NCBI RefSeq assembly: GCF_001418015.1
Contig: NZ_LIQG01000018.1
Location: 1-64,000 of the forward strand
DNA from: Lacinutrix mariniflava
Lineage (GTDB): Bacteria > Bacteroidota > Bacteroidia > Flavobacteriales > Flavobacteriaceae
Direction of reading: 5' to 3'
Length of the DNA stretch: 64,000 nucleotides
Made by a program: the position numbers and the translations under genes. Positions 3,001 to 47,749 of this stretch are shown here, in pieces (within the stretch, counting starts at the first letter, position 1; each line of letters begins with the position of its first letter). Under the pieces are notes generated by a model. It was not told the DNA's origin. It was given only the letters and a program-made list of their open reading frames with translations, and did not search any database.

Positions 3001-5653
3001 CAGTTTCAGTAAAAACAAAAAGTGTTGTTGTGGTTGTAATAGCTGTTCCTGCGGTTACTAAAGTACCTGTACCTGCTGATCCTCCTGTTGCTGTGTAATA
3101 GTCATTTCCGGGTGTTAAAGCTAATAATGTGAAGGTATCACATGCTTGCACATCTGAAGGTGCAGCTGCTGTTGGTGAAGTGTTTATAGTGATTGTAAAA
3201 CTATTTTCATCGGTACAATTGTTTGGTGTTGTACCTGTCTCTTTATAAACAAATAATGTTGTTGTGGTTGTAATAGCGGTTCCTGCTGTTACTAAAGTTC
3301 CTGAACCTGTTGGTCCTCCTGTTGCGGTATAATAATCGTTTCCTGGTGTTAAGTCTGGTAAATTAAAAGTGTCACAAGCCTGAACATCCAACGGATCATC
3401 CGCAGTCGGTAAAGCATCTATAGTTATTGTAAAACTAGTTTCACTAAAACAATCAGTATTAGAATTATTATCTACTCTAACATAAATAGTTTGAGTAGGA
3501 CTTGCTGTATTGCTATATACTGTTGGATTGGTTATAGGATTTGAGGAAGTAGCAACATCCGTTTGCAACTCATAAAAACTTACTGAGAAATTTAAAGGAT
3601 CTTGACCGTTTAGGATTTCTGATTCTAAAATTGTTAGATTAATTATTTCAACACCATCGTTAGAGCTATCATCACAGATACGAATATTGTTGGGTTGCGT
3701 AGCTACCGCTCTTTCATCCACTACTAAATTAAATGTAGGATTAGTTGATGAAATGTAACATGTTGGATCATCATTATCTTCGATTCTAACAAAAATAGGT
3801 TGAGGATTCGAAGTATTAATATATGAATTAGCCAAAGCATTTGTTCCTGCATCGGCATTACTAAAATCATCATGATAAGTAACACTATAATCTAAGGCAG
3901 ATAATGTTCCAAGGATAGCTGAGTCTTGTGTATTTAGAATAAATGTCTCTGTTCCATCATTACTAGTATCATCACAAACCACCAAATCTGGTACTGTATT
4001 AATTGTAGTCCCTAAAAATTGTAATAAAAAAGAATCTGTTGAAAAACAGCTTCCTGTTTGTGTGTCTTCAATTCTTATAAAAATTGTTTGCCCATCTGTA
4101 CCTGTATACATTATTGGATTAAGAATAGGATTTGCACCTGAGTTTGCATTAGCTTGAGAAATATGATATGTCACACTAACATCCATTGTGTCTTGAGTTC
4201 CAATGGCTGGAATATTATTATCAGTTAGATTAAAAACTGCTGTTGTGCTACCATTGTTGCATTTTGTCAAATTATTTACAGACTGAATTATAGGAGTCGT
4301 TTTATATTCAACAAAAATAGAATCTGTAGTTTGACAAGAAGAAGTAACATCTATTTCGACAAAATAATTTCCTTGTTGTGTAATATCTAATGTAGATCCT
4401 GTTTCTCCAAATATTTCATTTCCGTCAAGATACCAAGTATGATTTACACCAGAAAAAGAAGTGTCTAAGGTAATAGATGTACCTTGACATTGAGCAGTAC
4501 CTGCAGCAATTGTTATGTCTTCTCCTAGGTCTCCTCCTCCTAAATCAAATGTACCTGCACCAATAAAAACTGCGGCATCTCTTACTGAATCATCACCATC
4601 TGCAATTACTAATTTTATAGTGTATGCATCACCAGCAATTACGTTGGCAAAAGCAGTCATTGGTACCGTATAACCTAGAAAATTAGTAGGATTATCTATT
4701 GGAGCCTGACCTCCAGGCCCATAGTAGGAATCAAAAAACATGGGATTAACTGATGTGCATGACGGTCTATATGCATTATCTCTTACAGTCGTTACACCAA
4801 CTGGATCGGTAGTACCTGGTACGACAGCAAGATTCGATACTGCTAAATTAGATTGCTTTGTTAATATAAAAGCAAAAGCATCTGCATAGCTACATTGAAA
4901 TGCGCCATATTCCTCAGAAGCAAAAATATAATCAAAACTTATAGTGTTGCTTGTAGGTACAAAACTAAATTCAATATAAGATGCATTATAAGTAACTACA
5001 CCGCCTCCAATAATAGCCTCTAAATCGGCATCTCCACCCCAAGTACCATTATTTTGAGCACCTGTCTCAGGACCTTCTGCTGCTGTGGCATTACCCGTAG
5101 ATAATATAATACCACTTTGAAAAGCAAAAGCACCTGGCATAGCTGTAAATGATCCTATTCCTTGTGATGCTCCAAAATTCATATCATCACTAGAAGTTAT
5201 ATCAGCAACTAAAGCACATGAGTTGTTTATTAATACATCGGTTACTAATTCTTGAGTACTATATGTTGTTATATCTACATCAATATATGGAGAGAATACT
5301 TTATCTTCAGTTATTGATGAAGCAACATTTTCAATTCCATTCTTAATTTTTAAATGCGAATCTTTAATAATGATATCAAAAGACTGTTCATTAAAACAGT
5401 TATCTTCAATATTAATTACACTAGAATAAGTATATAGTGTCGTGCTTTGGTAAATAACCGTACCAGGTTTAATAACTAAACCATAACCATCTGGACCACC
5501 TGACTCTGTATAGTAAGTATTGCCCGAAGGTAGATTTGGTAATATATATTTTTGATAGACTTCTATATTTGATGGAGTTTCTAAGTCATCAGCATATAAA
5601 ACAGTGCTAAAAAGAGTTGCAAATAGAAACGAAAAAAGTAGAGTGTTTTTCAT
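1..5653 (-). CDS. Giant secreted repeat protein with choice-of-anchor L domain (C-terminus outside window)
   Basis: The frame is open from an ATG at 5653 to the window edge (1884 codons); I checked residues near the edge codon by codon and found no stop. A signal peptide of about 21 residues (MKNTLLFSF...VLYA) starts it. One degenerate module follows at residues 70-95. A choice-of-anchor L domain follows (about residues 140-370, with SSDDMNFG, SGIILSTGN, FDYIFASEEYG and DAFAFILT). Then come an Ig/PKD-like segment, several roughly 100-residue modules with CDDxxxDG and IYVRVED motifs, nine near-identical 78-residue modules, and four more CDD modules. In Flavobacteriaceae such proteins are normally exported by the type IX system and carry a C-terminal sorting domain. 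That end is outside the window, so T9SS export is inferred. A role in adhesion or the cell surface is likely; the ligand is unknown. Confidence 0.85.
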   Translation of the reverse strand, partial: MKNTLLFSFLFATLFSTVLYADDLETPSNIEVYQKYILPNLPSGNTYYTESGGPDGYGLVIKPGTVIYQSTTLYTYSSVINIEDNCFNEQSFDIIIKDSHLKIKNGIENVASSITEDKVFSPYIDVDITTYSTQELVTDVLINNSCALVADITSSDDMNFGASQGIGSFTAMPGAFAFQSGIILSTGNATAAEGPETGAQNNGTWGGDADLEAIIGGGVVTYNASYIEFSFVPTSNTISFDYIFASEEYGAFQCSYADAFAFILTKQSNLAVSNLAVVPGTTDPVGVTTVRDNAYRPSCTSVNPMFFDSYYGPGGQAPIDNPTNFLGYTVPMTAFANVIAGDAYTIKLVIADGDDSVRDAAVFIGAGTFDLGGGDLGEDITIAAGTAQCQGTSITLDTSFSGVNHTWYLDGNEIFGETGSTLDITQQGNYFVEIDVTSSCQTTDSIFVEYKTTPIIQSVNNLTKCNNGSTTAVFNLTDNNIPAIGTQDTMDVSVTYHISQANANSGANPILNPIMYTGTDGQTIFIRIEDTQTGSCFSTDSFLLQFLGTTINTVPDLVVCDDTSNDGTETFILNTQDSAILGTLSALDYSVTYHDDFSNADAGTNALANSYINTSNPQPIFVRIEDNDDPTCYISSTNPTFNLVVDERAVATQPNNIRICDDSSNDGVEIINLTILESEILNGQDPLNFSVSFYELQTDVATSSNPITNPTVYSNTASPTQTIYVRVDNNSNTDCFSETSFTITIDALPTADDPLDVQACDTFNLPDLTPGNDYYTATGGPTGSGTLVTAGTAITTTTTLFVYKETGTTPNNCTDENSFTITINTSPTAAAPSDVQACDTFTLLALTPGNDYYTATGGSAGTGTLVTAGTAITTTTTLFVFTETGTAPNNCTDENSFTITIDVSPTADAPLDVQACDTYTLPTLTTDNDYYTTTGGPTGTGTLVTAGTAITTTTTLFVYKATGTTPNNCTDENSFTITINTSPTAAAPSDVQACDTFTLLALTPGNDYYTATGGPAGTGTLVTAGTAITTTTTLFVFTETGTAPNNCTDENSFTITIDVSPTADAPLDVQACDTYTLPALTADNEYYTATGGPTGAGTLLTVGTAVTTTTTLFVYKETGTTPNNCTDENSFTITIDASPTADAPSDVQTCDTFTLLDLTPENKYYTATGGPAGTGTLVTAGTAITTTTTLFVFTETGTTPNNCTDENSFTITIDVSPTADAPLDVQACDTYTLPTLTTDNEYYTATGGPTGTGALVTAGTAITTTTTLFVYKETGTTPNNCTDENSFTITIDASPTADAPSDVQACDTFTLLDLTPGNNYYTATGGPAGTGTLVTAGTAITTTTTLFVFTETGTTPNNCTDENSFTITIDVSPTADDPLDVQACDTYTLPALSPGSSYYTATGGPTGSGAIVPAGTILVNSTTLFVYAETSTAPNNCVDENTFDISIGISPTAFPIDNELQCEIDNNGTVLFNLTSNDAVISNGQDNTAVTYYTTLSNAETASFAILNPTSYANVSNPEIIYIRLEDSLTGCYDTTSFEIRVNSSGIINPSPFLTYCDPDSDGFGEFNLNEADIQIAAGDPGFLISYYETLADAENTVNELDSNYNNIVVNNQPIYTRVVNLNNDCINIIILDLIVNPTPQITTAAVLTPLEVCDDNADGFASFNLPTKEPEILNLLDADATNDLDPTLYTITYYTSEANAEAPTNAIATPNAYVNTTVDAQTIWVRVEDNATGCYKTVALDLIVNPLPVLVQPTALNLCDVNNPGDEVEAFNLEDANAEILDGQTGITLTYFSTQAGADTNDGAVEIVSPYSNTSNAQTVYVRATNNVTGCVSTITLDLRVNPLPSPIASPIPLVACDDDNDGFFDMFDLESQSTIIENGEPN
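1310..3415 (-). repeat. Nine tandem 234-bp coding repeats in alternating A/B order
   Basis: The anchor string acaatt[a/g]tttggtg recurs at 1343, 1577, 1811, 2045, 2279, 2513, 2747, 2981 and 3215, always exactly 234 bp (78 codons) apart. Units at 1577, 2045, 2513 and 2981 share one variant (coding VFTETGT). Units at 1811, 2279, 2747 and 3215 share another (coding VYKETGT or VYKATGT). The array is therefore built from 468-bp A+B dimers, with a more diverged unit at 1343. Each module reads roughly PTADAP-DVQACDT-LPALTPGNDYY-TGG-GTLVTAGTAITTTTTLFV-NNCTDENSFTITI. Unit boundaries are arbitrary. Confidence 0.9.
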
Positions 5654-34934: not shown

Positions 34935-35092
34935 AATATTTTTTTGATTAGAGTTATTTTAAAAAGTAAAATTACGAATTAAGAGTTGCTTAATTTGTTA
35001 AGAAAACCTTAAAGTAAATATAATTAAATTGGAGTGAAACCTAATTTTCTAACACCTTTATTATGGCATTTCACAATCTCTCGTTAATTTTT

Positions 35093-35134
35093 GTTTAACA
35101 ATTGTCGTAAAGTGTTAAACATTTTGTATCTTTA
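35093..35134 (+). promoter_or_regulatory. Dyad operator and promoter of the photolyase cluster (copy 1)
   Basis: GTTTAAC (35093-35099), 14 bp, GTTAAAC (35114-35120), then ATTTTG and the -7 box TATCTTTA (35127-35134), with a possible -33 TTG at 35102-35104. The arms are exact inverted repeats 21 bp centre to centre, that is two helical turns. The same arrangement occurs at 42504-42545. The upstream GTTAATTTT block is also shared. It controls the TetR-headed operon. Confidence 0.7.
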
Positions 35135-35152
35135 TATTATCAAATAATAAAT

Positions 35153-35812
35153 ATGATGGCAAAAAAGAAAAATATTACTCAAGATCATATCATTTCATTT
35201 TACATGGATTATGTTTTAGAACATGACCAACAACCAAAGTCAGTTTACAGTTTTGCAAAGCACAATAACTTTGAAGAATCAAAATTTTACGAATTCTTTG
35301 GTTCTTTTGAAGCTGTAGAACAACATGTTTTTAAAGCTTTTCATGATAATACAATATCAGCTTTACATAAAAGTGAAGATTATGAAGGTTTCGAACCTAG
35401 AAACAAGCTATTAAGCTACTACTTTACATTTTTCGAAAACTTAACGGCTAACAGAAGCTATGTTGTATATGCACTACACAAGCACAAAAACAGCTTAAAA
35501 TCTTTTAAAGCTTTAGCTGAATTAAAATCTAGTTTTACACATTACATTTTAGACTTAGGAATAGAATTAATAGATGTTAAAGAAGAGCGTTTAGATAAAA
35601 TTCAAAATCGCGGACTTACAGAATCTGCCTGGTTACAATTATTATTGACCATGAAATTTTGGATGGACGATACCTCTCCAAGTTTTGAAAAAACAGATGT
35701 TTTTATAGAGAAATCTGTTAACACCAGTTTCGATGTACTGAATATTGCTCCTTTAAAAAGCTTAATAGACTTTGGGAAATTTATTTTCAAAGAGAAAATA
35801 AACATGAACTAA
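35153..35812 (+). CDS. TetR/AcrR-type transcriptional regulator
   Basis: 219 residues. The N-terminal HTH (about 10-58) has the TetR-type recognition-helix and hinge pattern SVYSFAKHNNFEESKFYEFFGSFEAVEQHVFKAF; the rest is a helical ligand/dimer domain as in TetR C-terminal family members. It is the first gene of the light-related cluster and lies directly behind a dyad operator that recurs inside the cluster, so it is the prime candidate for binding that site. Another regulator encoded elsewhere cannot be excluded. The ligand is unknown. Confidence 0.75.
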   Translation: MMAKKKNITQDHIISFYMDYVLEHDQQPKSVYSFAKHNNFEESKFYEFFGSFEAVEQHVFKAFHDNTISALHKSEDYEGFEPRNKLLSYYFTFFENLTANRSYVVYALHKHKNSLKSFKALAELKSSFTHYILDLGIELIDVKEERLDKIQNRGLTESAWLQLLLTMKFWMDDTSPSFEKTDVFIEKSVNTSFDVLNIAPLKSLIDFGKFIFKEKINMN

Positions 35813-35830
35813 TTTAATAAACACAAACTA

Positions 35831-37141
35831 TTGAAAACAATAGACAAAATGCCGACATCTAAAATTCAGCGTGCTTCAAAACTTGTACAAACAGGTGCTA
35901 AAGTTGGTGTTAATTATCTTAAATATTATGGAGATAAATTAACAAAAACTGAAGAAGAAGCCAAGTCTCGTTTAAACGAGAATAATGCTGAAGATATTTA
36001 CGACGGATTAAAAAAACTTAAAGGCAGCGCCTTAAAAGTAGCACAAATGTTAAGTATGGAAAAGAGTATTTTACCACAAGCTTATGTGGAGAAATTTTCT
36101 CTTGCGCAATTTTCTGTACCGCCACTTTCTGCACCTTTAGTAATTAAAACATTTAAGAAATACTTTGGCAAATTGCCTAACGAAATCTACGACACCTTTA
36201 ATTCAACGTCTGTTAATGCTGCCAGTATTGGTCAAGTGCATTTAGCAGAAAAAGATGGGAAGAAACTTGCTGTGAAAATTCAATATCCAGGTGTCGCAGA
36301 TAGTATTTCTAGTGATTTGGCAATGGTGAAACCTATCGCCATACAAATGTTTAATATTAAAGGAAAAGATAGCGACAAATATTTTAAGGAAGTCGAAAAT
36401 AAGTTGGTTGAAGAAACCAATTACATCCTTGAAATAGCACAAAGTAAGGAAATTGTTGCTGCTTGTAAACACATTCCTAATCTAAAGTTTCCGGAGTATT
36501 ATGAAGACTTGTCTTCAGAACGGATAATTACTATGGATTGGATGGATGGTGAGCACCTGAGCGAATTTACGGCCTATAATACAAACCAAGAGAAGGCAAA
36601 TAAAATAGGCCAAGCACTTTGGGATTTTTATATGTTTCAAATGCATGAATTAAAAAAAGTGCATGCTGATCCGCATCCGGGTAATTTCTTAATTTCGAAA
36701 GAAGCAGAACTAATAGCTTTAGACTTTGGGTGTATGAAAACCATTCCTGAAGATTTCTATGTACCTTATTTTGAATTAGCAAAGAAAGAAAGCATTGATA
36801 ATGCCGAGATTTTCGATACCAAAATGTATCAATTAGAGATTTTACGTGAAGACGATTCTCCTGAGGAATTAGAATTTTTCAGAAGCCTTTTTCATGAAAT
36901 GTTAAGTCTCTTCACACAACCATTACAGAGTGAAACCTTCGATTTTTCTGATCCTGAATTCTTTGGAAAAATAACAGAATTAGGTCAGAAATACAGTAAA
37001 AGCGCAGAATTAAGAAAAATGAATGGTAATAGAGGTTCAAAGCACTTCATTTATATAAACCGTACATTTTTTGGCTTATATAATTTAATGTTCGATTTAA
37101 AAGCACAGGATATAAAAATCAATAATTATAAAACGTTGTAG
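35831..37141 (+). CDS. ABC1/AarF (UbiB-like) atypical kinase
   Basis: 436 residues of the ABC1 kinase-like family. Motifs: the KxGQ-type segment KGSALKVAQMLSME (about 60), the alanine-rich P-loop replacement AASIGQVHLAE, the invariant lysine in LAVKIQYPG, HADPHPGNF for the catalytic loop and ALDFG for metal binding. Family members act on quinone biosynthesis or lipid/quinone homeostasis. The frame starts at TTG 35831; an ATG at 35849 (MPTSK) is an alternative. It lies 18 bp after the TetR gene. Confidence 0.92.
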   Translation: MKTIDKMPTSKIQRASKLVQTGAKVGVNYLKYYGDKLTKTEEEAKSRLNENNAEDIYDGLKKLKGSALKVAQMLSMEKSILPQAYVEKFSLAQFSVPPLSAPLVIKTFKKYFGKLPNEIYDTFNSTSVNAASIGQVHLAEKDGKKLAVKIQYPGVADSISSDLAMVKPIAIQMFNIKGKDSDKYFKEVENKLVEETNYILEIAQSKEIVAACKHIPNLKFPEYYEDLSSERIITMDWMDGEHLSEFTAYNTNQEKANKIGQALWDFYMFQMHELKKVHADPHPGNFLISKEAELIALDFGCMKTIPEDFYVPYFELAKKESIDNAEIFDTKMYQLEILREDDSPEELEFFRSLFHEMLSLFTQPLQSETFDFSDPEFFGKITELGQKYSKSAELRKMNGNRGSKHFIYINRTFFGLYNLMFDLKAQDIKINNYKTL

Positions 37142-37756
37142 ATGCCATATTTCAGTTTAAACGATATTAATAATTTAGAACATCTCTATAAAATAAACCT
37201 TATTAATGGTTGTTCAGGATTTAAGTCTGCTAACTTAATAGGCACAAAATCTAAAGACGGTATTGAAAACGTTGCCATTTTTAGTTCCGTAACTCATGTT
37301 GGATCTAATCCTCCTATTTTAAGTTTTTTTTGTAGGCCAACAACTGTCTCTAGAGATACCTACGAAAACATAAAGGAAACTGGCGTTTATACTATAAATC
37401 ATATACATGAATCGAATTTTGAAGATGCACACCATACTTCAGCTAAATACGATTCAAGTATTTCAGAGTTTGATAAAACAACATTAATTTCAGAATATAA
37501 AGAAAACGGCTTTGCTCCTTTTGTAAAGGACTCTCCTATTCAATTAGAAATGAAATTTATTGGAGAATATAACATTAAAGAAAACGGCACTATTTTAGTT
37601 TTAGGCGAAATTCAAGGTCTTTATATTAATGACGACATAGTAACCGAAGATGGTTTTGTAAACCTCTCTCAAGCAAAAGTTGCTGCTATTAATGGTTTAG
37701 ATGGTTATACGTTTCCTAAATTAAAACAAAGATTAGCTTACCAAAGACCGAAATAG
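37142..37756 (+). CDS. Flavin reductase family protein
   Basis: 204 residues with the flavin reductase-like FMN-binding split-barrel pattern: NGCSGFKSANLIGTKS, NVAIFSSVTHVGSNPPILSF and YTINHIHES. The family reduces free flavin with NAD(P)H or binds FMN. Its ATG follows the ABC1 kinase stop without a single spacer base. In a photolyase cluster a role in supplying reduced flavin is plausible (inference). Confidence 0.85.
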   Translation: MPYFSLNDINNLEHLYKINLINGCSGFKSANLIGTKSKDGIENVAIFSSVTHVGSNPPILSFFCRPTTVSRDTYENIKETGVYTINHIHESNFEDAHHTSAKYDSSISEFDKTTLISEYKENGFAPFVKDSPIQLEMKFIGEYNIKENGTILVLGEIQGLYINDDIVTEDGFVNLSQAKVAAINGLDGYTFPKLKQRLAYQRPK

Positions 37757-37804
37757 AGAAACTTAACTGTATTCAATAAATAAAATATTTAATAAATTAA
37801 AAAC

Positions 37805-39229
37805 ATGAAAATACTTGTTACAGGTGCCACAGGTTATATAGGTAAACGTATTATTCCGTTACTTATAGAGCAAGGTCATACTGTAATTTGTGCAGTAAGA
37901 GGTAAACTGAGAACAGAAAAACGTTACAGCGAAGAGCAGAAAATTCAAGTTATTGAAGTTGATTTTTTAAATCCAGAGACTTTAACAAACATCCCTAAAG
38001 ATATAGATGCTGCTTATTATTTAATTCACTCTATGTCTAATTCTGTTTCTCATTTCCAACAAATGGAGAAGGATTGTGCGGTAAATTTCAAGAGCGCAAT
38101 AGAAAAAACAAACTGCAAGCAAGTTATCTATCTAAGTGGTATTACTAACGATACGAAACTATCTAAACATTTACTTTCACGCAAAAATGTAGAAAACACA
38201 TTAGCTTCATCAAAATATGCTTTAACTGTTTTTAAAGCTGGAATTATTGTAGGATCTGGAAGTAGTTCTTTCGAAATTATTAGAGATTTAGTAGAAAAAC
38301 TACCGGTAATGGTGGCTCCGAAATGGTTAAACACAAAAACGCAGCCTATCGCTATTAGAGATGTTCTTGCTTTTTTAACGCTTAGTTTGGGTGACCAAAG
38401 GTTATATAATAACTCTTATGATATTTTTGGTCCAGAGGTTTTAACCTATAAAGAGCTGTTATTAAGATTTGCTAAATCAAGAAACCTAAAAAGAACTATC
38501 ATTACATTTCCTATAATGACACCACAACTGTCTAGTTATTGGCTATACTTTGTTACTTCAACATCTTACAAATTAGCAAGAACTTTGGTAAATAGTATGG
38601 GCGTTGAAATTATTGGTAAAGCTAGTGATATCAATACTTTATTAGATGTTCATCCGATGACTTATGAAGAAGCATTAAAATTTGCTTTTGTGAAAATTAA
38701 GCAAAATAGCATTGTTTCTAGTTGGAAAGATTCTTTTGCAAGTAGTCGAAGTAGAAAACGAGTATCTGCTAAGTACATTAATGTGCCAAAATATGGCTGT
38801 TTTAAAGATGTAAAAGAACGTAAGGTTTTAGATGAAGAACGCACCTTTGCAAAAATATGTGCAATAGGCGGTGATAATGGTTGGTACTACGGAACCGCTT
38901 TATGGAAAATTCGCGGTTTTGTCGATAAACTAGTTGGTGGGATTGGTCTGCGTAGAGGGCGTACCAATAAAGACACGCTTAAAACTGGTGACGCTTTAGA
39001 CTTTTGGCGCGTACTTTTAATAGATGAAGAAAATAAACGTTTACTACTTTTTGCCGAAATGAAACTTCCTGGAGAAGCATGGCTAGAGTTTAGAGTCGCC
39101 AAAGGAAAAGTATACCAACGCGCAGTGTTTAGACCTAAAGGTCTTGCTGGAAGATTATATTGGTATAGTGTATTGCCATTTCATGGTTTCATATTTAATG
39201 GTATGATAAATAAGCTCGCAAATGCCTAA
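37805..39229 (+). CDS. SDR-family NAD(P)-binding protein with DUF2867
   Basis: 474 residues. The N-terminal Rossmann domain starts ILVTGATGYIGKRII and belongs to the extended/atypical SDR group. The C-terminal half (from about residue 320) is DUF2867, with GDNGWYYGTALWKIRGFVDKL and GDALDFWRVL. The two-domain fusion is often found in photolyase/SRPBCC neighbourhoods. The substrate is unknown. Its last 8 bp overlap the DUF2256 gene. Confidence 0.88.
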   Translation: MKILVTGATGYIGKRIIPLLIEQGHTVICAVRGKLRTEKRYSEEQKIQVIEVDFLNPETLTNIPKDIDAAYYLIHSMSNSVSHFQQMEKDCAVNFKSAIEKTNCKQVIYLSGITNDTKLSKHLLSRKNVENTLASSKYALTVFKAGIIVGSGSSSFEIIRDLVEKLPVMVAPKWLNTKTQPIAIRDVLAFLTLSLGDQRLYNNSYDIFGPEVLTYKELLLRFAKSRNLKRTIITFPIMTPQLSSYWLYFVTSTSYKLARTLVNSMGVEIIGKASDINTLLDVHPMTYEEALKFAFVKIKQNSIVSSWKDSFASSRSRKRVSAKYINVPKYGCFKDVKERKVLDEERTFAKICAIGGDNGWYYGTALWKIRGFVDKLVGGIGLRRGRTNKDTLKTGDALDFWRVLLIDEENKRLLLFAEMKLPGEAWLEFRVAKGKVYQRAVFRPKGLAGRLYWYSVLPFHGFIFNGMINKLANA

Positions 39230-39362
39230 AGGTATTAAAAAACAAAATCTACCCTCCAAAATATGTATTACTTGTCACTTGCCGTTTTTATGGCGCAAAA
39301 AGTGGACTAATGAATGGGACAACGTAAAATATTGTAGCGAAAAATGCAAAAGAAACAAGTGA
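39222..39362 (+). CDS. DUF2256 zinc-binding small protein
   Basis: 46 residues: MPKGIKKQNLPSKICITCH, then PFLWRKKWTNEWDNVKYCSEKCKRNK. Cys15 and Cys18 (CxxC) with Cys38 and Cys42 (CxxxC) form a zinc ribbon, and WRKKW is the family signature. DUF2256 genes often occur next to cryptochrome/photolyase genes, sometimes fused to them, as here. The ATG lies within the end of the SDR gene. Below normal gene-calling length. Confidence 0.92.
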   Translation: MPKGIKKQNLPSKICITCHLPFLWRKKWTNEWDNVKYCSEKCKRNK

Positions 39363-39452
39363 AATGCAAAATAAAATAATCTTACATTTTAATAAACACT
39401 ACGATTCTACAATAGATTTAATTTCAAAAAATCTATTCACAAAAACTACAAT

Positions 39453-40985
39453 TTGAAAACATTAAGACTCATATTAGGCGATCAACTTAACAGTAAACAC
39501 ACTTGGTTTAAAGGAGACCAAAGCGAGTATATATACTGTATATTCGAAATGCGCCAAGAAACAGATTACGTAAAACACCATATTCAAAAAGTGATAGGCT
39601 TTTTTGCTGCCATGCGCGCGTTTTCAAAAACTTTAGAAGCAGAAAATTGTAACGTTATTTATTATAAGTTAGATAACGAAAATAACAGTCAAAACCTTAT
39701 TGATAATCTTCAACAAATTATTGAAGAACACAAAATTACAAACTTCGAATATCAAGAGCCAGACGAATACCGATTAGACGAGCAACTCTCTACTTTTTGC
39801 AAAGCACTTGCTATAAAACATAAAGTATATTCTACAGAACATTTTTACACTAGCAGACAAGATTTAACCACTTTTTTTAAAGATAAAAAACAATGGTTAA
39901 TGGAAAGTTTTTATAGAAACATGCGTAAAAAGCATGATGTTTTAATGATTGCTGGACAACCAGAAGGTGGAAAATGGAACTACGATAAAAGCAATAGGAA
40001 TAAATGGAAAGAGAAAGAACCTATTCCAGAATTTAAGGCTTTTAAAAATGAAGTTTCAGATATTTTATCGGTTATAAAATCTAAAAAAATTGAAACTATT
40101 GGTTCTTTCAATTCAAAATATTTCGAGTATCCAATTAATAGAAAACAAACGTTAGAGCAACTAAAATATTTTTGTGAGCATTTATTAATTCATTTTGGAG
40201 ATTACCAGGATGCTATGCATACTGAACAGGTTTATTTATTTCATTCGCGTCTATCTTTTGCAATGAATTGCAAAATAATTTCACCAAAAGCGATTGTAAC
40301 TACTGTTTTAAATTATTGGAGAGCTCATGGAGAGGCTATAAACATCTCTCAAGTAGAAGGTTTTATAAGGCAAATAATAGGATGGCGAGAATATATGCGA
40401 GGCATGTATTGGGCTTTAATGCCAGAATATAAGTCGCTTAATTATTTAGAAAACAAAAACTCACTGCCAAACTTTTTCTGGACAGGAAACACAAAAATGA
40501 ATTGCCTTAAAAGTGCCATAACAAATTCTCTAGATAATGGTTATGCACATCATATTCAACGCTTAATGATTACTGGTAATTATGCATTATTAACACAAAT
40601 TAATCCTGATGAAGTCGATGCATGGTATTTAGGTATTTATGTCGATGCTGTAGAATGGGTTCAGTTGCCTAATACCAGAGGAATGAGCCAGTTTGCAGAT
40701 GGTGGAAAAATAGCAACAAAACCTTATGTATCCAGCGGAAGTTATATTAATAAAATGAGCAATTATTGCGATGATTGTTATTATAATAAAAAAGAGAAAA
40801 TTGGAGATAAAGCCTGCCCTTTTAATAGTTTATATTGGAATTTTTTAGATGATAAACGCGAAAAACTAAGCAGTATTTTTAGAATGAAAATGATGTATAG
40901 CTTATTAAATAAAATGAAACCCGAAGATTTACATAGCATTAAATTAAAAGCTAAAGATATTATTGAAAACCCTGATAATTATTAA
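39453..40985 (+). CDS. Iron-sulfur bacterial cryptochrome/photolyase (FeS-BCP, PhrB-like)
   Basis: 510 residues from a TTG start. The N-terminal Rossmann domain begins [17 protein letters not shown]. Four cysteines, Cys351, Cys439, Cys442 and Cys455, sit at the spacing of the 4Fe-4S ligands of Agrobacterium PhrB (350, 438, 441 and 454), and the FAD-binding region includes [11 protein letters not shown] and [11 protein letters not shown]. Relatives repair (6-4) photoproducts and use FAD, a lumazine antenna and an Fe-S cluster. The next gene overlaps its stop (TAATG), so the two photolyase-like genes are coupled. Confidence 0.93.
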
Positions 40986-42475
40986 TGTCTAAAAAACAAG
41001 AACTACAAATTGTATGGTTTAAAAGAGACCTTCGTTTAAAAGATAACGAAGCTATTGAACGCGCTATAAATTCTGGTAAACGCGTGCTATTACTTTATGT
41101 TTTTGAAGATTTTTTAATTGAAGACAAACATTATAGTAAACGTCATTGGGATTTTGTAAAACAGTCTTTAGAAGATTTAAATCTATCTTTAAACAAATTC
41201 AATTCTCAGGTTTTAGTTGTTAATGATTCTATTGAATCTGCAATCCATAAAATAAAAAAACTTTATAATATTACACATGTCTATTCTCATCAAGAAACTG
41301 GACTGTTATCTACTTTTAAACGTGACATACAATTTATTTCCTTTTGTAAAAAAGAACACATCACTTGGATAGAAAATGCAAACAATGCCATTATTAGAGG
41401 TATAACCAATAGAAATACTTGGTTTGAAGATTGGAACGATTTCATGAATGTGCCCTATCATGTCTTTCAACCAAAGGAAGAACAATTACTTAAAATATCA
41501 GAAATAAATATACTTTCAAAAGATTTTAATGTTACAAATTTAAAAACTTCAGAAAACAGAAATTTTCAAAAAGGAGGTACAGGAACAGGAATAAAATACA
41601 TGAAATCCTTTTTCTTAGAACGCTATCCTAATTATATGTTTCATATTAGTAAACCGCTTCATGCTAGAACTGGTTGTAGTCGCTTATCCCCTTACATTGC
41701 TTGGGGAAACCTATCTATTAAACAAGTCATAAATATAGCTGCAGAAGTTAGAGAGAACGGGAAGCATAAACGCCATATTAATGCTTTTATGTCTAGACTA
41801 CGCTGGCAAGGACACTTTATTCAAAAATTTGAAATGGAACACTTAATGGAGTTTAAAAGTGTAAATAAAGGTTATCATAACCTAATTAAACCAGAAAATT
41901 TAGAATTCCAAAAAGCATGGAAAACAGGACAAACAGGTTATCCGTTAGTAGATGCATGTATGCGTTGTTTAAACGAAACTGGTTATTTAAACTTTAGAAT
42001 GCGTGCTATGGTAGTTTCTTTTTTTACTCATAACTTATGGCAACCATGGCAAGCTATGAGCGAGCATTTAGCAGCAATGTTCTTAGATTTTGAACCAGGA
42101 ATACACTATCCACAAATACAAATGCAAGCAGGAGAAACGGGTATAAATATGTTGCGTATTTACAACCCTATAAAAAATAGTATAGAGCATGATCCTAAAG
42201 GAGAATTTATAAAAAAATGGGTTCCAGAATTAGCAATGCTAGAGGCACCTTATATTCATGAGCCACACACTTTGTCTTATTTTGATCAACAGCTAACAGG
42301 TTTTGAACTTGGTAAAGACTACCCTTTTCCTATAGTAGACGAAAAAACATCTAGAAAAAATGCGAGTAACATACTTTGGAATTTAAAGGATAATCCGCTA
42401 GTTAAAAAGGAAGCTAAACGTATTTTAAAACGCCATACAGTCGCTAATCGTCAGCAAATGATAAACAGTAATTAA
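40985..42475 (+). CDS. Atypical cryptochrome/deoxyribodipyrimidine photolyase-family flavoprotein
   Basis: 496 residues. The N-terminal photolyase alpha/beta domain is clear ([17 protein letters not shown]), and the FAD-binding half has [47 protein letters not shown] and [25 protein letters not shown]. However, the usual segment with Asn and WQW is replaced by [16 protein letters not shown] (residues 368-383), so the standard semiquinone-tuning Asn and inner Trp are not in place. It may be a non-repair photoreceptor or a distinct photolyase class. It is translationally coupled to the FeS-BCP gene. Confidence 0.88.
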
Positions 42476-42503
42476 ATTAACAATTTAATCTTTTGTTAAT
42501 TTT

Positions 42504-42545
42504 GTTTAACTTTTTAGTTTAAATCTTAAACATTTTGTAAATTTG
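42504..42545 (+). promoter_or_regulatory. Dyad operator and promoter inside the photolyase cluster (copy 2)
   Basis: GTTTAAC (42504-42510), 14 bp, CTTAAAC (42525-42531), ATTTTG, then a perfect -7 box TAAATTTG (42538-42545). Arm sequence, 14-bp spacing and the 6-bp distance to the -7 box equal those of the copy at 35093. No -33 TTG lies at the expected place, which would fit activator dependence. The -7 box overlaps a TTG that would otherwise be taken as the start of the next gene. Confidence 0.7.
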
Positions 42546-42575: not shown

Positions 42576-43001
42576 ATGGTATTAAATACAACACATTCAA
42601 ATAAAGACAACAAGAAAATCATTAATAAAATGGTTGGAACTGCATTTAGTTTTATACAAAGTTTAAAATTAAAAGGCATTGGTTCTAAACGTATGGTAGT
42701 AGATAATGTTAGTCCTAATTTAAGACTGTTTTTAAATAAAGTATCAGATATAAACTATAGCAATATAGAGCTGAGACCTAAAGGTGTTTTAGTCCATATT
42801 ACAAAAGGACATCAAAATTTTACTTGGGTAATACCTTACTATCAATTGGTCCTTTACAAATCAGATGGCTCTAGCATTCACGCTCAAGGCAGGTTTATTC
42901 ACTTTAAAAATAATAAGATGTTAAAAGAGAATAAACTGTTTTTTGATAAAATTTTAAACGAAAAAATAAAATTTGATGAACACTATAATTTCCAAACCTA
43001 A
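42576..43001 (+). CDS. Hypothetical protein of the photolyase cluster
   Basis: 141 residues from the ATG at 42576 (MVLNTTHSNKDNKKI). The frame also opens at TTG 42543, but that codon is part of the -7 promoter box, so the ATG is preferred. The protein looks alpha/beta with a basic N-terminal half and segments such as TAFSFIQSLKLKGIGSKRMVVD and GHQNFTWVIPYYQLVLYKSDG. I do not recognise a family. It is the first gene behind the second dyad operator, and DUF2805 starts within its 3' end. Confidence 0.7.
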   Translation: MVLNTTHSNKDNKKIINKMVGTAFSFIQSLKLKGIGSKRMVVDNVSPNLRLFLNKVSDINYSNIELRPKGVLVHITKGHQNFTWVIPYYQLVLYKSDGSSIHAQGRFIHFKNNKMLKENKLFFDKILNEKIKFDEHYNFQT

Positions 43002-43281
43002 TAGTCCCGAAAACTTTACTATCGAAGACATTGATCGCATAATCGAGATGGCTTGGGAAGACAGAACGCCTTTTGATGCTATAACCTTTCAATTTGGTAT
43101 TAAAGAGCAAGAAGTAATTGCGCTCATGCGAAAAGAAATGAAATCTAGTAGTTTTAGAATGTGGCGTGCTAGAGTTCAGGGTAGAAAAACAAAACATTCT
43201 AAACATAGAAATTTTGAAGAGGGACGTTTTAAATGTTCAAGACAAAAACAAATAACACACAATAAAATAAGTAAAAGGTAA
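42976..43281 (+). CDS. DUF2805 / TIGR03643 family protein
   Basis: 101 residues from the ATG at 42976. The core FTIEDIDRIIEMAWEDRTPFDAI and QEVIALMRKEMKSSSFRMWRARVQGRKTKH is the family signature and resembles an HTH-like fold with a basic end. The family is repeatedly found beside photolyase and DUF2256 genes. The function is unknown. It overlaps the preceding gene by 26 bp and is 8 bp before folE. Confidence 0.9.
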   Translation: MNTIISKPNSPENFTIEDIDRIIEMAWEDRTPFDAITFQFGIKEQEVIALMRKEMKSSSFRMWRARVQGRKTKHSKHRNFEEGRFKCSRQKQITHNKISKR

Positions 43282-43289
43282 ATACTGCT

Positions 43290-43991
43290 ATGGACAAGAC
43301 TGATTTAAATTTACTTAAAGAAGAAAAAACTAAGGCTTTAAACGGAGAATCTTATATAGATATTGGTGATGACCATTGGTTTTTAGGTTTAAATACACCA
43401 ATGAGAGCTGATGCTTTTGCTATTTCTGATACTGAAAAAAAAGAGAAAATAGCTGGATTATTTAGTCAGATAATGGTTGTGTTAGGCATGGATTTAACAG
43501 ATGATTCTTTAAAAGGAAGTCCTAAACGTGTAGCTAAAATGTATGTAGACGAAATTTTTTCTGGTCTTAATCCAGCAAATAAGCCTGCAATTACTTTATT
43601 TGATAATAAATATCAATACAACCAGATGCTTGTAGAAAAAAACATCACGTTTTACTCTAATTGCGAACATCACTTTGTACCCATAATTGGAAAAGCACAT
43701 GTTTCTTATATTTCTTCAGGTAAAGTTATTGGCCTTTCTAAGTTGAATAGAATTGTGCAGTATTTTGCAAATAGACCACAAGTACAAGAACGTTTAACAA
43801 ATCAAATTGCAATCGAATTAAAAACGATTTTAAATACAGAGGATGTAGCTGTAATTATAGATGCCAAACATTTATGTGTATCCTCCAGAGGAATTAAAGA
43901 TGAGACATCATCAACAATAACCTCTTATTATGGTGGTGCATTTAAAACGCAAGCTAAAATAACAGAGTTACAAAATTACCTTAAAGATTAA
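43290..43991 (+). CDS. folE: GTP cyclohydrolase I
   Basis: 233 residues of type I FolE, which converts GTP to dihydroneopterin triphosphate, first step to folates and pterins. Zinc ligands are Cys125, His128 and Cys196, with exactly the spacing of the E. coli enzyme (110, 113, 181). GSPKRVAKMYVDE and HFVPIIGKAHV are typical. In this cluster it may supply folate or pterin antenna chromophores to the photolyases. It may be a second copy besides a housekeeping folE elsewhere (cannot be judged from this window). Confidence 0.96.
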   Translation: MDKTDLNLLKEEKTKALNGESYIDIGDDHWFLGLNTPMRADAFAISDTEKKEKIAGLFSQIMVVLGMDLTDDSLKGSPKRVAKMYVDEIFSGLNPANKPAITLFDNKYQYNQMLVEKNITFYSNCEHHFVPIIGKAHVSYISSGKVIGLSKLNRIVQYFANRPQVQERLTNQIAIELKTILNTEDVAVIIDAKHLCVSSRGIKDETSSTITSYYGGAFKTQAKITELQNYLKD

Positions 43992-44082
43992 AAATAACTT
44001 AAGCGGCTTATTTGTCGCACACAATGTTAGAATAGATTGTATTTACTAAAATGGTATCTATTCAATTAAAAAAGTATTCAAA

Positions 44083-44766
44083 ATGAAAAACATAGTAATA
44101 ATAGGTGGAAGTAAAGGTATTGGAAATGCAATAGTTAATACTCTCGTTGGAAACAATAAGGTAATTAATATTAGTAGAACTGAACCAGAAATAAAACATG
44201 AAAACTTAACACATTACAGCTGTAATGTATTAAGTGATGACCTGCCAGAACTAGAAGCAATAGATACTTTAATATACTGTCCAGGAAGTATTAATTTAAA
44301 ACCAATTTCGAGATTAAAATTAGAAAACTTTAGAGAAGATTTCGAAATAAACGTCATTGGTGCCGTTAAAGTAATTCAAAAATATTTACCTTTATTAAAG
44401 CACGGCAATGCACCTTCCATCCTACTCTTTAGTACAGTTGCTGCTAAATTAGGAATGCCATATCATGCAAGTGTTGCAGCTGCAAAATCTGCTGTCGAGG
44501 GTTTAACCAAATCATTAGGAGCCGAATTAGCACCAACCATTAGAGTTAATGCTATTGCGCCTACTGTAACTAATACAGATTTGGCTGCAAAATTATTAAG
44601 AAATGAAAAAATGATTGAGAATATTACAGAACGTCATCCTTTGAAAAAGTTTTTAAATCCTGAAGAAGTTGCAAATATGGCGGCGTTTTTAACCTCTGAA
44701 AAAGCAGCATCAATATCTGGTCAAGTTTTTCAAATGGATTGTGGTATTGTAAGCTTTAAAATATAA
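44083..44766 (+). CDS. SDR-family oxidoreductase lacking the catalytic tyrosine position
   Basis: 227 residues with the SDR glycine motif GGSKGIGNAI (8-17) and C-terminal DCGIVSF. The active-site region reads STVAAKLGMPYHASVAAAKSAVEG: Lys135 of YxxxK is present, but the tyrosine position is Val131, with a Tyr at 127 instead. Such variants may use another residue or have a non-catalytic role. A 91-bp gap before it may carry a weak promoter. The next gene follows 2 bp later. Confidence 0.88.
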   Translation: MKNIVIIGGSKGIGNAIVNTLVGNNKVINISRTEPEIKHENLTHYSCNVLSDDLPELEAIDTLIYCPGSINLKPISRLKLENFREDFEINVIGAVKVIQKYLPLLKHGNAPSILLFSTVAAKLGMPYHASVAAAKSAVEGLTKSLGAELAPTIRVNAIAPTVTNTDLAAKLLRNEKMIENITERHPLKKFLNPEEVANMAAFLTSEKAASISGQVFQMDCGIVSFKI

Positions 44767-44768
44767 CT

Positions 44769-45305
44769 ATGAATCCCTTTAAAATATTTGCACGTACATT
44801 ATTCTCAAAAGAAACTCATAATATCAATAGTCTCCAATCCATTTATAATATAGAAATTAATGGTCTAAATGGTAAACCTATTACACTTTCAAGTTTTAAA
44901 GGCAAACATATTCTTTTTGTTAATGTAGCCTCTAAATGTGGTTTCACTCCTCAATATAAAGAGTTGCAAGAATTACATGAAACCTATAAAAGCAAATTGG
45001 TAATTATTGGTGTGCCTTGTAATCAATTTGGTAAACAAGAGCCGGGTGATACAAAAGAAATAGAAACCTTTTGCGAAGTAAACTATGGTGTGACTTTTTT
45101 AATTTCTGAAAAAATAGAAGTTAAAGGTAGTAATGCACATCCTTTATACAAATGGTTAACTCAAAAAAGTAAAAATGGAGTCTCCAACTCTTCTGTAAAA
45201 TGGAATTTTCAAAAATATTTAGTAAATTCAGAAGGTAAATTAATCGATTATTACTTCTCAGCGACAAAGCCAAATAGTATTAAAATAACGAAACACTTAA
45301 AATAA
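44769..45305 (+). CDS. Glutathione peroxidase (thiol peroxidase type)
   Basis: 178 residues. The signature VNVASKCGFTPQY contains the peroxidatic Cys57 (cysteine, not selenocysteine), followed by GVPCNQFGKQEPG and WNFQKYLVN with the Gln, Trp and Asn of the catalytic tetrad. Such bacterial enzymes reduce peroxides with thioredoxin rather than glutathione. It is part of a tight run of genes (2 bp spacings) and fits an oxidative/photo-oxidative stress theme. Confidence 0.94.
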   Translation: MNPFKIFARTLFSKETHNINSLQSIYNIEINGLNGKPITLSSFKGKHILFVNVASKCGFTPQYKELQELHETYKSKLVIIGVPCNQFGKQEPGDTKEIETFCEVNYGVTFLISEKIEVKGSNAHPLYKWLTQKSKNGVSNSSVKWNFQKYLVNSEGKLIDYYFSATKPNSIKITKHLK

Positions 45306-45307
45306 TT

Positions 45308-45475
45308 ATGTTCGGACTATTCAAAAAAACAACTGAAGCAGAAAAACTTCAAAAACAATATGAAAAATTATTAAAAGAGTCTTACGACCTATCTAAGTCT
45401 AACCGTAGCGCAAGTGATGCTAAATTATCTGAAGCTGAAGCTATACAAGATAAAATAATGGCTTTGAAAAAATAA
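45308..45475 (+). CDS. Lacal_2735-type small protein
   Basis: 55 residues: MFGLFKKTTEAEKLQKQYEKL, then LKESYDLSKSNRSASDAK and LSEAEAIQDKIMALKK. It is a charged, helical, probably coiled-coil peptide matching my knowledge of the Lacal_2735 family, common in Flavobacteriaceae. Its function is unknown. It starts 2 bp after the peroxidase stop and ends 2 bp before the TspO gene. It is below the usual calling length but clearly real by context. Confidence 0.9.
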   Translation: MFGLFKKTTEAEKLQKQYEKLLKESYDLSKSNRSASDAKLSEAEAIQDKIMALKK

Positions 45476-45477
45476 TT

Positions 45478-45939
45478 ATGAAGCTCCTTAAACACATTAT
45501 TTTCTTTTTAATTATAAACTTTGGCAGTCTTGCCTTAGGCAGTTGGTTAATGGAAAATGGACCAAGAACTGTTTGGTACCAATCATTAAACCAAGCACCT
45601 TGGACTCCACCAGGTTGGGCTTTTGGAATCGCTTGGACTTTTATAATGGTCTGCTTTTCTATCTATTTAGGTTACTTATTTATTAAAGCAGATAGTGTTA
45701 AATTAAAACTAGCTTTCTCCTTACAAGTATTTTTAAATGTAATATGGAATTTTGTGTTTTTCAATCAGCATCTCATCGCTTTAGGATTAGTAGTAATATC
45801 TGCTTTAACAGTCGTTATTTTCACCTTTTTCTTTAACAACTTTAAAACTGTACAAAACAAAAGTTACCTCCTACTACCTTACATGGCGTGGCTATTAATT
45901 GCAACCTCATTAAACGCTTACATAGTATTATATAATTAG
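45478..45939 (+). CDS. TspO/MBR family tryptophan-rich sensory protein
   Basis: 153 residues with five membrane helices and the TspO pattern WYQSLNQAPWTPPGWAFGIAWTFIM and NVIWNFVFF. TspO proteins bind porphyrins and related ligands and are often light- or stress-regulated; in Rhodobacter TspO influences pigment genes in response to oxygen and light. It lies in the middle of the cluster and is co-transcribed with its neighbours. Confidence 0.95.
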   Translation: MKLLKHIIFFLIINFGSLALGSWLMENGPRTVWYQSLNQAPWTPPGWAFGIAWTFIMVCFSIYLGYLFIKADSVKLKLAFSLQVFLNVIWNFVFFNQHLIALGLVVISALTVVIFTFFFNNFKTVQNKSYLLLPYMAWLLIATSLNAYIVLYN

Positions 45940-45980
45940 GATTATTTTTTCGCTTTCGCGGAACTAAAAACAAATTTAAA

Positions 45981-46442
45981 ATGAAAATATACACCTTTCA
46001 TAGAAAGCAAAACTTGCCAATCACCAAAGCGCAAGCTTGGGAGTTTTTATCCAGCCCGAAAAATTTAAAAACGATTACTCCAGATTATATGGGATTCGAT
46101 ATCCTTTCTGGAGCAGATAGACCAATGTATGCTGGACAAATAATTCAATACATAGTAACACCTGTTTTAGGTATTAAAACAAAGTGGGTTACAGAAATAA
46201 CTCATGTTGTAGATGGCGAATATTTTGTAGACGAACAACGTTTTGGTCCATATGCATTATGGCATCACAAACATTTTATTAAAGAAATTGATGGCGGTGT
46301 TGAAATGGAAGATATTATAGATTATAAAGTACCTATGGGTATTTTAGGTCAAATGGTTAATCCTATTTTAGTAAGACCAAAATTAGAAGAGATATTTAAA
46401 TATCGTACGCAAAAGTTAGAAGAATTATTTGGTAAATATTAA
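45981..46442 (+). CDS. SRPBCC family (START-like) protein
   Basis: 153 residues with the helix-grip pattern of the SRPBCC superfamily: ITKAQAWEFLSSPKNLKTITPDYM at the N-terminus, WVTEITHVVDGEYFVDEQRFGPYALWHHKHF in the middle, and a long C-terminal helix. The ligand is unknown, probably a hydrophobic molecule. Homologues are regular members of photolyase clusters. It starts 41 bp after TspO and ends 2 bp before the photolyase gene. Confidence 0.9.
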   Translation: MKIYTFHRKQNLPITKAQAWEFLSSPKNLKTITPDYMGFDILSGADRPMYAGQIIQYIVTPVLGIKTKWVTEITHVVDGEYFVDEQRFGPYALWHHKHFIKEIDGGVEMEDIIDYKVPMGILGQMVNPILVRPKLEEIFKYRTQKLEELFGKY

Positions 46443-46444
46443 AG

Positions 46445-47749
46445 ATGAAACAACCCATAAACATATTTTGGTTTAGAAGAGATTTACGTTTAGAAGATAA
46501 TCATGGTTTTTATGAAGCACTAAAAGCAGACAAACCAGTATTACCAATCTTTATTTTCGACGAAACCATATTAAGTAAACTACCAAAAGACGATGCTCGC
46601 GTTACCTTTATTCATGAGAATTTACAAGCGATGCAGGATATTCTAAAGAAAAAATATAACTCAGCTATTGCAATTTATCATGGCACTCCAGAAGTCGTCT
46701 ATAAACAGTTAATAGAAAATTATGCTATAGCATCTGTTTACACCAATCGAGATTATGAGCCCTACGCACTTGAAAGAGATAAGAATATTGAATCTTTATT
46801 AACTCATAACAGTATTAATTTCAAGACTTATAAAGATCAAGTTATCTTTGAGCGTGACGAAATTGTAAAAAAAGACGGTACACCGTATAGAGTTTATACA
46901 CCATTTTCTCGTGTATGGATAGATGAATATAATAGAAACCAAACATCCTTTTTTCCTTCGGAAGAATTCCTCAATAATACATTAAAAGATACTAAATTAC
47001 CAAATCTAAGTTTAACAGACATTGGTTTTCAAGAAGCTAAAGTTAAAGTAGAACATTACACAGTAACACCTACTTTAATTGCAGATTATGAAGCGACACG
47101 AAACTTTCCGGCGCAAGACAATACCTCTAAATTAGGACCACATTTACGTTTTGGAACTGTAAGTGTTCGTAAAATGGTAAAAGAAGCTTCAAAACAACAA
47201 AATATTACTTTCTTAAAAGAGTTAATTTGGCGTGAGTTTTTTACGCAAATACTTTGGCACTTTCCACACACAGCAAAAGACTGTTTTAAACCAAAATACG
47301 AACGTATAGAATGGCGCAACAATGAAATCGAATATAAAGCCTGGTGCGATGGCCAAACAGGTTATCCGTTGGTAGATGCAGGAATGCGACAATTAAACGC
47401 TACTGGCTTTATGCATAATCGCGTACGCATGCTTGTAGGTAGTTTTTTATGCAAACATTTATTAATAGATTGGCGCTTAGGTGAAGCTTACTTTGCATTA
47501 AAACTGCACGATTACGATATGTCTAGTAATATTGGAAACTGGCAATGGGTTGCTGGTTGTGGTGTGGATGCTTCACCATATTTTAGAATATTTAATCCAA
47601 CTACACAAATAGAAAAATTTGATAAGCAACACGAGTATATTAAAAAGTGGGTTCCAGAATATCAAGAGCTAACTTATACTAGCCAAATTGTGGATCATAA
47701 AGAAGCTCGAGAGCGTTGTTTAAGGGTTTACAAAGAGGCAGTATCTTAA
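46445..47749 (+). CDS. phr: Deoxyribodipyrimidine photolyase (class I CPD type)
   Basis: 434 residues. Standard photolyase N-terminal domain (INIFWFRRDLRLEDNHGF) and a canonical FAD-binding region: [44 protein letters not shown] and DYDMSSNIGNWQWVAGCGVDASPYFRIFNP, with the Asn and Trp expected for CPD repair by light. It is the third photolyase-family gene in 8.3 kb and the last gene of the cluster. Confidence 0.95.
   Translation: MKQPINIFWFRRDLRLEDNHGFYEALKADKPVLPIFIFDETILSKLPKDDARVTFIHENLQAMQDILKKKYNSAIAIYHGTPEVVYKQLIENYAIASVYTNRDYEPYALERDKNIESLLTHNSINFKTYKDQVIFERDEIVKKDGTPYRVYTPFSRVWIDEYNRNQTSFFPSEEFLNNTLKDTKLPNLSLTDIGFQEAKVKVEHYTVTPTLIADYEATRNFPAQDNTSKLGPHLRFGTVSVRKMVKEASKQQNITFLKELIWREFFTQILWHFPHTAKDCFKPKYERIEWRNNEIEYKAWCDGQTGYPLVDAGMRQLNATGFMHNRVRMLVGSFLCKHLLIDWRLGEAYFALKLHDYDMSSNIGNWQWVAGCGVDASPYFRIFNPTTQIEKFDKQHEYIKKWVPEYQELTYTSQIVDHKEARERCLRVYKEAVS

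Follow-up and report, generated by a model that had tools for sequence, protein, structure and literature searches.

The window analyzed here, a stretch of 64,000 nucleotides from Lacinutrix mariniflava (contig NZ_LIQG01000018.1, positions 1 to 64,000), carries a photolyase cluster laid out as two successive operons on the forward strand, each headed by a copy of one long-spaced inverted repeat, or dyad, which is the subject of this work. Operon 1 opens with a TetR-fold protein (35153..35812; PF17931, predicted model and fold search) and continues (35831..42475) with an ABC1 kinase, a flavin reductase, an SDR-DUF2867 protein, a DUF2256 protein (39222-39362), the photolyase-related protein DPRP and a cryptochrome/photolyase. 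Operon 2 opens with a 141-amino-acid protein without a Pfam or NCBIfam match (42576..43001 from the ATG that we chose as its start, the open reading frame (ORF) running from a TTG at 42543), followed (42973..47749) by a DUF2805 protein, GTP cyclohydrolase I, an SDR, glutathione peroxidase, a member of the Lacal_2735 family, TspO, a putative SRPBCC-like protein without a Pfam match, and a photolyase.

The first copy of the dyad (35093..35120, no strand assigned), 32 bp before the start of the TetR-fold gene, reads GTTTAAC-N14-GTTAAAC and has perfect 7-bp arms: GTTTAAC at 35093-35099, the 14-bp spacer, and GTTAAAC at 35114-35120. It is followed by ATTTTG (35121-35126) and, 6 bp past the right arm, by a putative forward-strand -7 box, TATCTTTA (35127..35134). 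The second copy (42504..42531, likewise unstranded) reads GTTTAAC-N14-CTTAAAC, with its arms at 42504-42510 and 42525-42531 on either side of the 14-bp spacer, and is succeeded by ATTTTG (42532-42537) and the putative forward-strand box TAAATTTG (42538..42545), again at 6 bp; the -7 box consensus is TAnnTTTG. The window thus bears out what an earlier reading made from the sequence alone (henceforth the sequence-only reading) had claimed, namely a dyad, ATTTTG and TAnnTTT with equal spacings at both positions. That reading had also described a preceding block shared by both copies. Such a block exists on the forward strand (GTTAATTTTT at 35083..35092 and GTTAATTTT at 42495..42503), but its distance to the dyad is not equal, the GTTAATTTT block lying 1 bp farther away at copy 1 than at copy 2.

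Within the window, GTTTAAC-N(12-16)-[GC]TTAAAC occurs at these 2 sites only, against an expectation of 0.00 from 100 dinucleotide shuffles. If up to 3 mismatches to GTTTAAC-N14-GTTAAAC are allowed, 17 matches are found where 10.2 are expected, and 5 of the 100 shuffles reach 17; the 15 weaker matches do not stand out from the background. The abundance of such 3-mismatch matches in an AT-rich window is what would speak for a chance likeness of two AT-rich promoters, which, together with recent duplication, has to be weighed against the strict pattern, with its 0.00 expected matches, and against its conservation in relatives.

This conservation was assessed in a family sample of 149 genomes from 148 genera, 95 of which possess an orthologue of the 35153 gene; up to 350 bp upstream of it were read in 94 genomes, the orthologue of the 95th (G181) beginning at a contig end. 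The dyad, at no more than 2 mismatches, is present in 75 of these 94 upstream regions, as opposed to 12 of 3760 base-shuffled sequences, and a TAnnTTT[GA] box follows the right arm at 6 bp in 61 of the 75, at 5 bp in 7, and elsewhere or not at all in the remaining 7. The spacer length is equally constrained: GTTTAA and TTAAAC are separated by 14 bp in 64 of the 94 regions and by any other distance from 4 to 26 bp in at most 2, and a second, overlapping set of upstream regions yields the 14-bp spacer in 65 of 90. In contrast to its length, the sequence of the spacer is mostly unconserved among the relatives, which agrees with the proposal of the sequence-only reading that the two copies are not a recent duplication. 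These counts rule out chance or duplication, to which we attach next to no probability. Among 30 fetched loci of each kind, the dyad (2 mismatches or fewer) was recovered before the TetR orthologue in 24, upstream of the DUF2805 gene in 16 and just past the MerR gene in 15. Hence, the search of related Flavobacteriaceae that had been suggested finds the arms, the 14-bp spacing and the 6-bp distance to the box conserved at both cluster promoters, and the motif is far from absent in orthologous clusters. At the level of whole genomes, GTTTAAY-N14-STTAAAC occurs in 40 of 60 (L. mariniflava included) and its reversed control in 24, while the strict dyad occurs in 54 of 149 (77 sites) and its reversed control in 16 (19 sites).

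The dyad also recurs outside the window. In the 3.97 Mb L. mariniflava genome, the looser pattern GTTTAA-N16-TTAAAC has 5 sites versus 2 for the reversed control. Besides the two window copies, these are C32:4177-4204, C20:343262, which sits within an ORF, and C20:299301, placed 26 bp ahead of a 129-amino-acid ORF; a match at C26:196088 lies within an ORF as well. The site at C32:4177-4204, whose spacer is again 14 bp and whose centre coincides with a putative -7 box, TATATTTG, falls between a MerR gene (contig C32, 3261-4160; a 307-amino-acid ORF, or 299 amino acids from the first ATG) and the crtI-crtB-crtZ-crtY-like carotenoid cluster that this gene heads (crt names assigned by eye). Moreover, in 22 of 30 loci a GTTTAAC with at most 1 mismatch is placed precisely 15 nt ahead of the MerR start, where chance gives 21 of 6000. 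The start itself reads ATGAAC in 21 of those 22 and TTGAAC in the other, so that the right arm, in degenerate form, overlaps with the start codon of MerR, a signal to which the conserved first residues of MerR may contribute. In many relatives (L060-L075) the gap between MerR and crtI is small, the site between the genes is missing and the start-codon site alone is kept. Thus, as read from the DNA, the dyad marks the two photolyase operons and the junction between MerR and crtI, and a degenerate version of it marks the start of MerR.

A scan of species genomes from a collection of 84,980 with GTTTAAC-N14-GTTAAAC-ATTTTG-TAnnTTT returned at least 118 stretches. The 80 among them that were listed bear names of Bacteroidota as far as these were recognised, and their 81 sites divide by downstream ORF into TetR (37), the 141-amino-acid protein (23), SRPBCC-like (7), DUF2805 (2), photolyase-like (1), no match in the reference set (8) and the end of the locus (3). 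Seven of the eight no-match sites (L184, L186, L190, L192, L209, L213 and L244) precede a recurring protein of about 135 amino acids, after which comes a DUF2805-like ORF at four of the sites and a cryptochrome-like one at three (by eye); at the remaining site, the downstream ORF is similar to the ALO-type oxidase of L142 (by eye). Other dyad-bearing genes in relatives code for FolE, a cryptochrome/photolyase-type protein, an ALO oxidase and an ECF sigma factor near MerR (all by Pfam), as well as TspO-like and SDR-like proteins (by eye). The ECF sigma-factor genes with a dyad in the promoter belong to distant relatives (L176, 3044-3547; L166; L168) and are near MerR in L176 and L166. In six genomes (L035, L140, L143, L149, L161 and L163), the dyad stands ahead of a lipoprotein gene adjoining an mnmA-like ORF, and the lipoprotein of L035, the one of the six examined with Pfam, has Fasciclin domains. 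Several dyads listed for relatives are sited within ORFs and are probably due to chance. The further sites are not a random scatter: they recur at MerR-crtI and at other light-defence genes.

Given photolyases in the cluster, one might regard the sites as part of a DNA-damage (LexA-like) response. Carotenoid genes are not usually counted among SOS genes, and this speaks against such an assignment. The conserved GTTTAAC-N14-GTTAAAC is unlike GGA-N5-TCC, the reported SOS motif of the Flavobacteriaceae (PMC8565304); the mismatch rules out an SOS operator, which we hold to be extremely improbable.

Which protein binds the dyad can be approached through co-occurrence, with the proviso that the p values below ignore common descent. 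MerR is encoded by 53 of the 54 strict-dyad genomes versus 120 of 149 overall (p 8e-6), and TetR by 44 of the 54 versus 51 of the 95 others (95 of 149 overall; p 5e-4). The two signals come apart when one regulator is held fixed. In TetR-less genomes, the dyad is seen in 10 of 28 with MerR and in 0 of 26 without it (p 5e-4), whereas in MerR-bearing genomes it is seen in 43 of 92 with TetR and 10 of 28 without it (p 0.21); TetR-bearing genomes without MerR number three, too few to test a MerR effect, and these, G040, G053 and G094 (99-100% complete), lack the dyad before TetR. The 75 listed strict sites point in the same direction, with 27 just downstream of MerR and 1 just upstream (28 adjoining it), 15 immediately ahead of TetR, 9 at other positions within 15 kb of it, and 23 elsewhere. 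In seven of the ten dyad genomes that lack TetR, the dyad adjoins the MerR gene.

These figures bear directly on the candidate favoured by the sequence-only reading, the TetR-type protein at 35153, which could bind the dyad, thereby repressing operon 1, to which it belongs, together with operon 2 and, in second place, the carotenoid genes. It is common for TetR regulators to bind dyads that overlie their own promoters, as the position of copy 1 would suggest, and the overall association of TetR with the dyad is as expected of such a binder. The predicted model (predicted local distance difference test score, pLDDT, 89) retrieves TetR regulators first in a Foldseek search of the PDB (3c07, template modelling (TM) score 0.66, E 6.6e-4). 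Yet, human COQ9 appears lower in the same list (6awl, TM 0.55-0.62, E 0.066), Pfam recognizes the C-terminal domain only, and NCBIfam gives a weak, partial match to the COQ9 family (E 4e-4, 20 bits against a cut-off of 75), which, beside an ABC1 kinase, suggests another role; the protein may regulate something else or bind lipid. The succession of a TetR-fold/COQ9-like gene and an ABC1/COQ8-type kinase gene (35153-37141) recalls the COQ9-COQ8 pair of quinone metabolism. While a dyad over the promoter of a TetR-fold gene is like the autoregulated operators of the TetR family, the present one differs from them in that it is also found before unlinked genes and in genomes without a TetR-like gene (10 of the 54 strict-dyad genomes). 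Together with the lack of a significant TetR effect within MerR-bearing genomes and the dyad-less TetR promoters of the three genomes without MerR, this makes the 35153 protein an unlikely candidate for the main binder of the dyad, and we do not favour it. That one regulator governs the whole cluster, as had been proposed, is supported by the conservation of the shared operator at both promoters, and its reach would even extend past the window; the identification of that regulator with TetR is unlikely.

A third regulator, neither MerR nor TetR, might also bind the dyad and control both clusters, with MerR merely among its targets. Regulons can include regulators, MerR is just one of the dyad-bearing genes, and an ECF sigma-factor gene comes after MerR in L176 (by Pfam) and in L166 and L168 (by eye). 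We nevertheless think this improbable, as the 28 of 75 listed strict sites that adjoin MerR, and the dyad at the MerR start, are the usual signs of autoregulation.

We therefore prefer, with a probability of roughly 0.7, the reading in which one MerR-type, CarH/LitR-like repressor, encoded outside the window at the head of the carotenoid cluster, acts on both window sites as copies of the same operator. The geometry of the promoters is in keeping with repression. The dyad begins 34 bp before the -7 box in 23 of 24 TetR sites and in 16 of 16 operon-2 sites, and 14 bp before it in 13 of 15 crtI promoters, such that it lies upstream of the box in the photolyase promoters and over it in the crtI promoters. 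The arm centres are 21 bp, or two turns, apart and hence on one face of the helix, and as the shift in register between the two classes is 20 bp (about two turns), the protein would occupy the same face in both. With the -33 region covered in one class and the -7 box in the other, a repressor fits better than an activator working from a fixed register. The sequence-only reading had taken the missing -33 TTG of copy 2 as a hint of activation. A TTG usually stands about 22-24 bp from the -7 box, and at that distance it is conserved in neither the photolyase nor the crtI class; the dyad covering the crtI -7 box points to repression.

On the proposed mechanism, MerR would bind the dyad in the dark and block RNA polymerase. 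The DNA covered would span about -46 to -19 at the photolyase promoters and include the -7 box both at crtI and at the MerR gene itself, giving negative autoregulation. Light, acting directly via bound B12 or via a partner, would release MerR, and this release would turn on photolyases, pterin synthesis, redox proteins and carotenoids together. The binding by MerR and its response to light are inferred, and it is probable that light relieves the repression.

The MerR protein itself lends substance to this. It matches the CarH structures 3whp and 5c8d (E about 3e-12) over the DNA-binding and B12-binding parts, the similarity covering the ExH-containing part up to residue 226. Pfam places MerR_1 above its cut-off and B12-binding_2 just under it (22 versus 23 bits), while the NCBIfam CarH score is far below the cut-off (66 versus 400 bits). 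As in CarH (the B12 photoreceptor and class I LitR of Thermus, Bacillus and Myxococcus, whose DNA binding depends on AdoCbl and is lost in light), a MerR plus B12-domain layout lies beside carotenoid genes, and the equivalents of W131, E141 and the axial ligand H177 are invariant in 30 of 30 MerR orthologues. The CarH match, these conserved residues and the cobalamin adenosyltransferase encoded in the L. mariniflava genome make B12 binding plausible.

Several observations weigh against the MerR reading. The dyad is missing from 19 of the 94 TetR upstream regions, which break down into 14 of 86 in genomes with the canonical MerR, 4 of 6 where MerR is present solely as a divergent version (about 37-40% identity) and 1 of 2 where it is absent; thus, neither do all canonical-MerR genomes have it (the 14 of 86), nor do all genomes with only the divergent MerR lack it (2 of 6 have it, and one of this kind, G060, even carries a strict copy ahead of TetR). 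Nine genomes have their nearest dyad 174-234 bp upstream of the TetR match, where it may serve another gene. The reversed controls have matches of their own, in 24 of 60 genomes for the looser and 16 of 149 for the strict pattern. MerR is common (80% of genomes) and the genomes are not independent, both of which weaken the 53/54 figure, 67 of the 120 MerR genomes have no strict dyad, and no MerR was found in the dyad-bearing assemblies G114 (81% complete) and G003 (89% complete). In the protein, the H142 equivalent is H in 25 of the 30 orthologues, R in 1 and N in 4, including that of L. mariniflava, and the equivalent of H132, the light-state ligand of CarH, is Q in 30 of 30. One study describes H132 as critical for the light-driven disassembly of Thermus CarH and cites an earlier report of disassembly without it (PMC10442372). 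Finally, the operators of CarH consist of 11-bp direct repeats in tandem, nnnnTnnACAn (PMC9304148), unlike the inverted repeat with a 14-bp spacer conserved here, though no scan for TnnACA repeats was made here. As two CarH features are not found, we do not file the MerR protein as a CarH but as one that would act like the CarH/LitR family.

The closest known system is the class II LitR (PplR/PmlR) regulon of Pseudomonas. This LitR is a repressor of photolyase, cryptochrome and folE genes in the dark, the light-induced genes include phrB, cryB, folE, an SDR and the regulator itself, the operator is T(G/A)TACA-N12-TGTA(C/T)A, and of the B12-binding part the protein keeps the 4-helix bundle alone (PMC9758184). 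Shared with the flavobacterial system are a LitR/CarH-family MerR, a similar gene set, the likeness here being one of gene content only, and a long-spaced inverted operator. The flavobacterial system differs in its GTTTAAC arms and spacer of 14, in a regulator that heads a carotenoid cluster, and in a MerR whose B12 site, in contrast to class II LitR, retains the Wx9E and ExH residues. The sequence-only reading knew of no description of this operator, and our PubMed Central (PMC) search, which covered open-licence papers only, likewise found none.

Away from the photolyase cluster, the window holds a tandem array at 1432-3443, in which a 234-bp unit is repeated in 8.6 copies of alternating types (with 92% matches at a 468-bp period). 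It is probably the gene of a repetitive protein and extends past the window edge.

Flavobacteria are abundant in sunlit water, and some of them switch on pigments in light. How Bacteroidota do so was not described in any paper found by the same search of open-licence literature, and a report on the light-induced carotenoids of Chryseobacterium lacus states that the light-regulated mechanism 'has an unknown pattern' (PMC7064467). With an operator, a candidate regulator and predicted targets in hand, the question of light regulation becomes directly testable. It is conceivable, if somewhat short of an even chance, that we are dealing with a new CarH/LitR branch that flavobacteria use as the master light switch of both DNA repair and carotenoids. 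Such a repressor would have a B12 domain but lack the bis-His ligand, and its photochemistry or signal would differ from that of CarH. It would act at a 28-bp inverted operator of fixed geometry, placed in either of two registers that differ by two helical turns, and at another operator fused to the start codon of its own gene. If true, this would widen the LitR/CarH family by a new operator logic.

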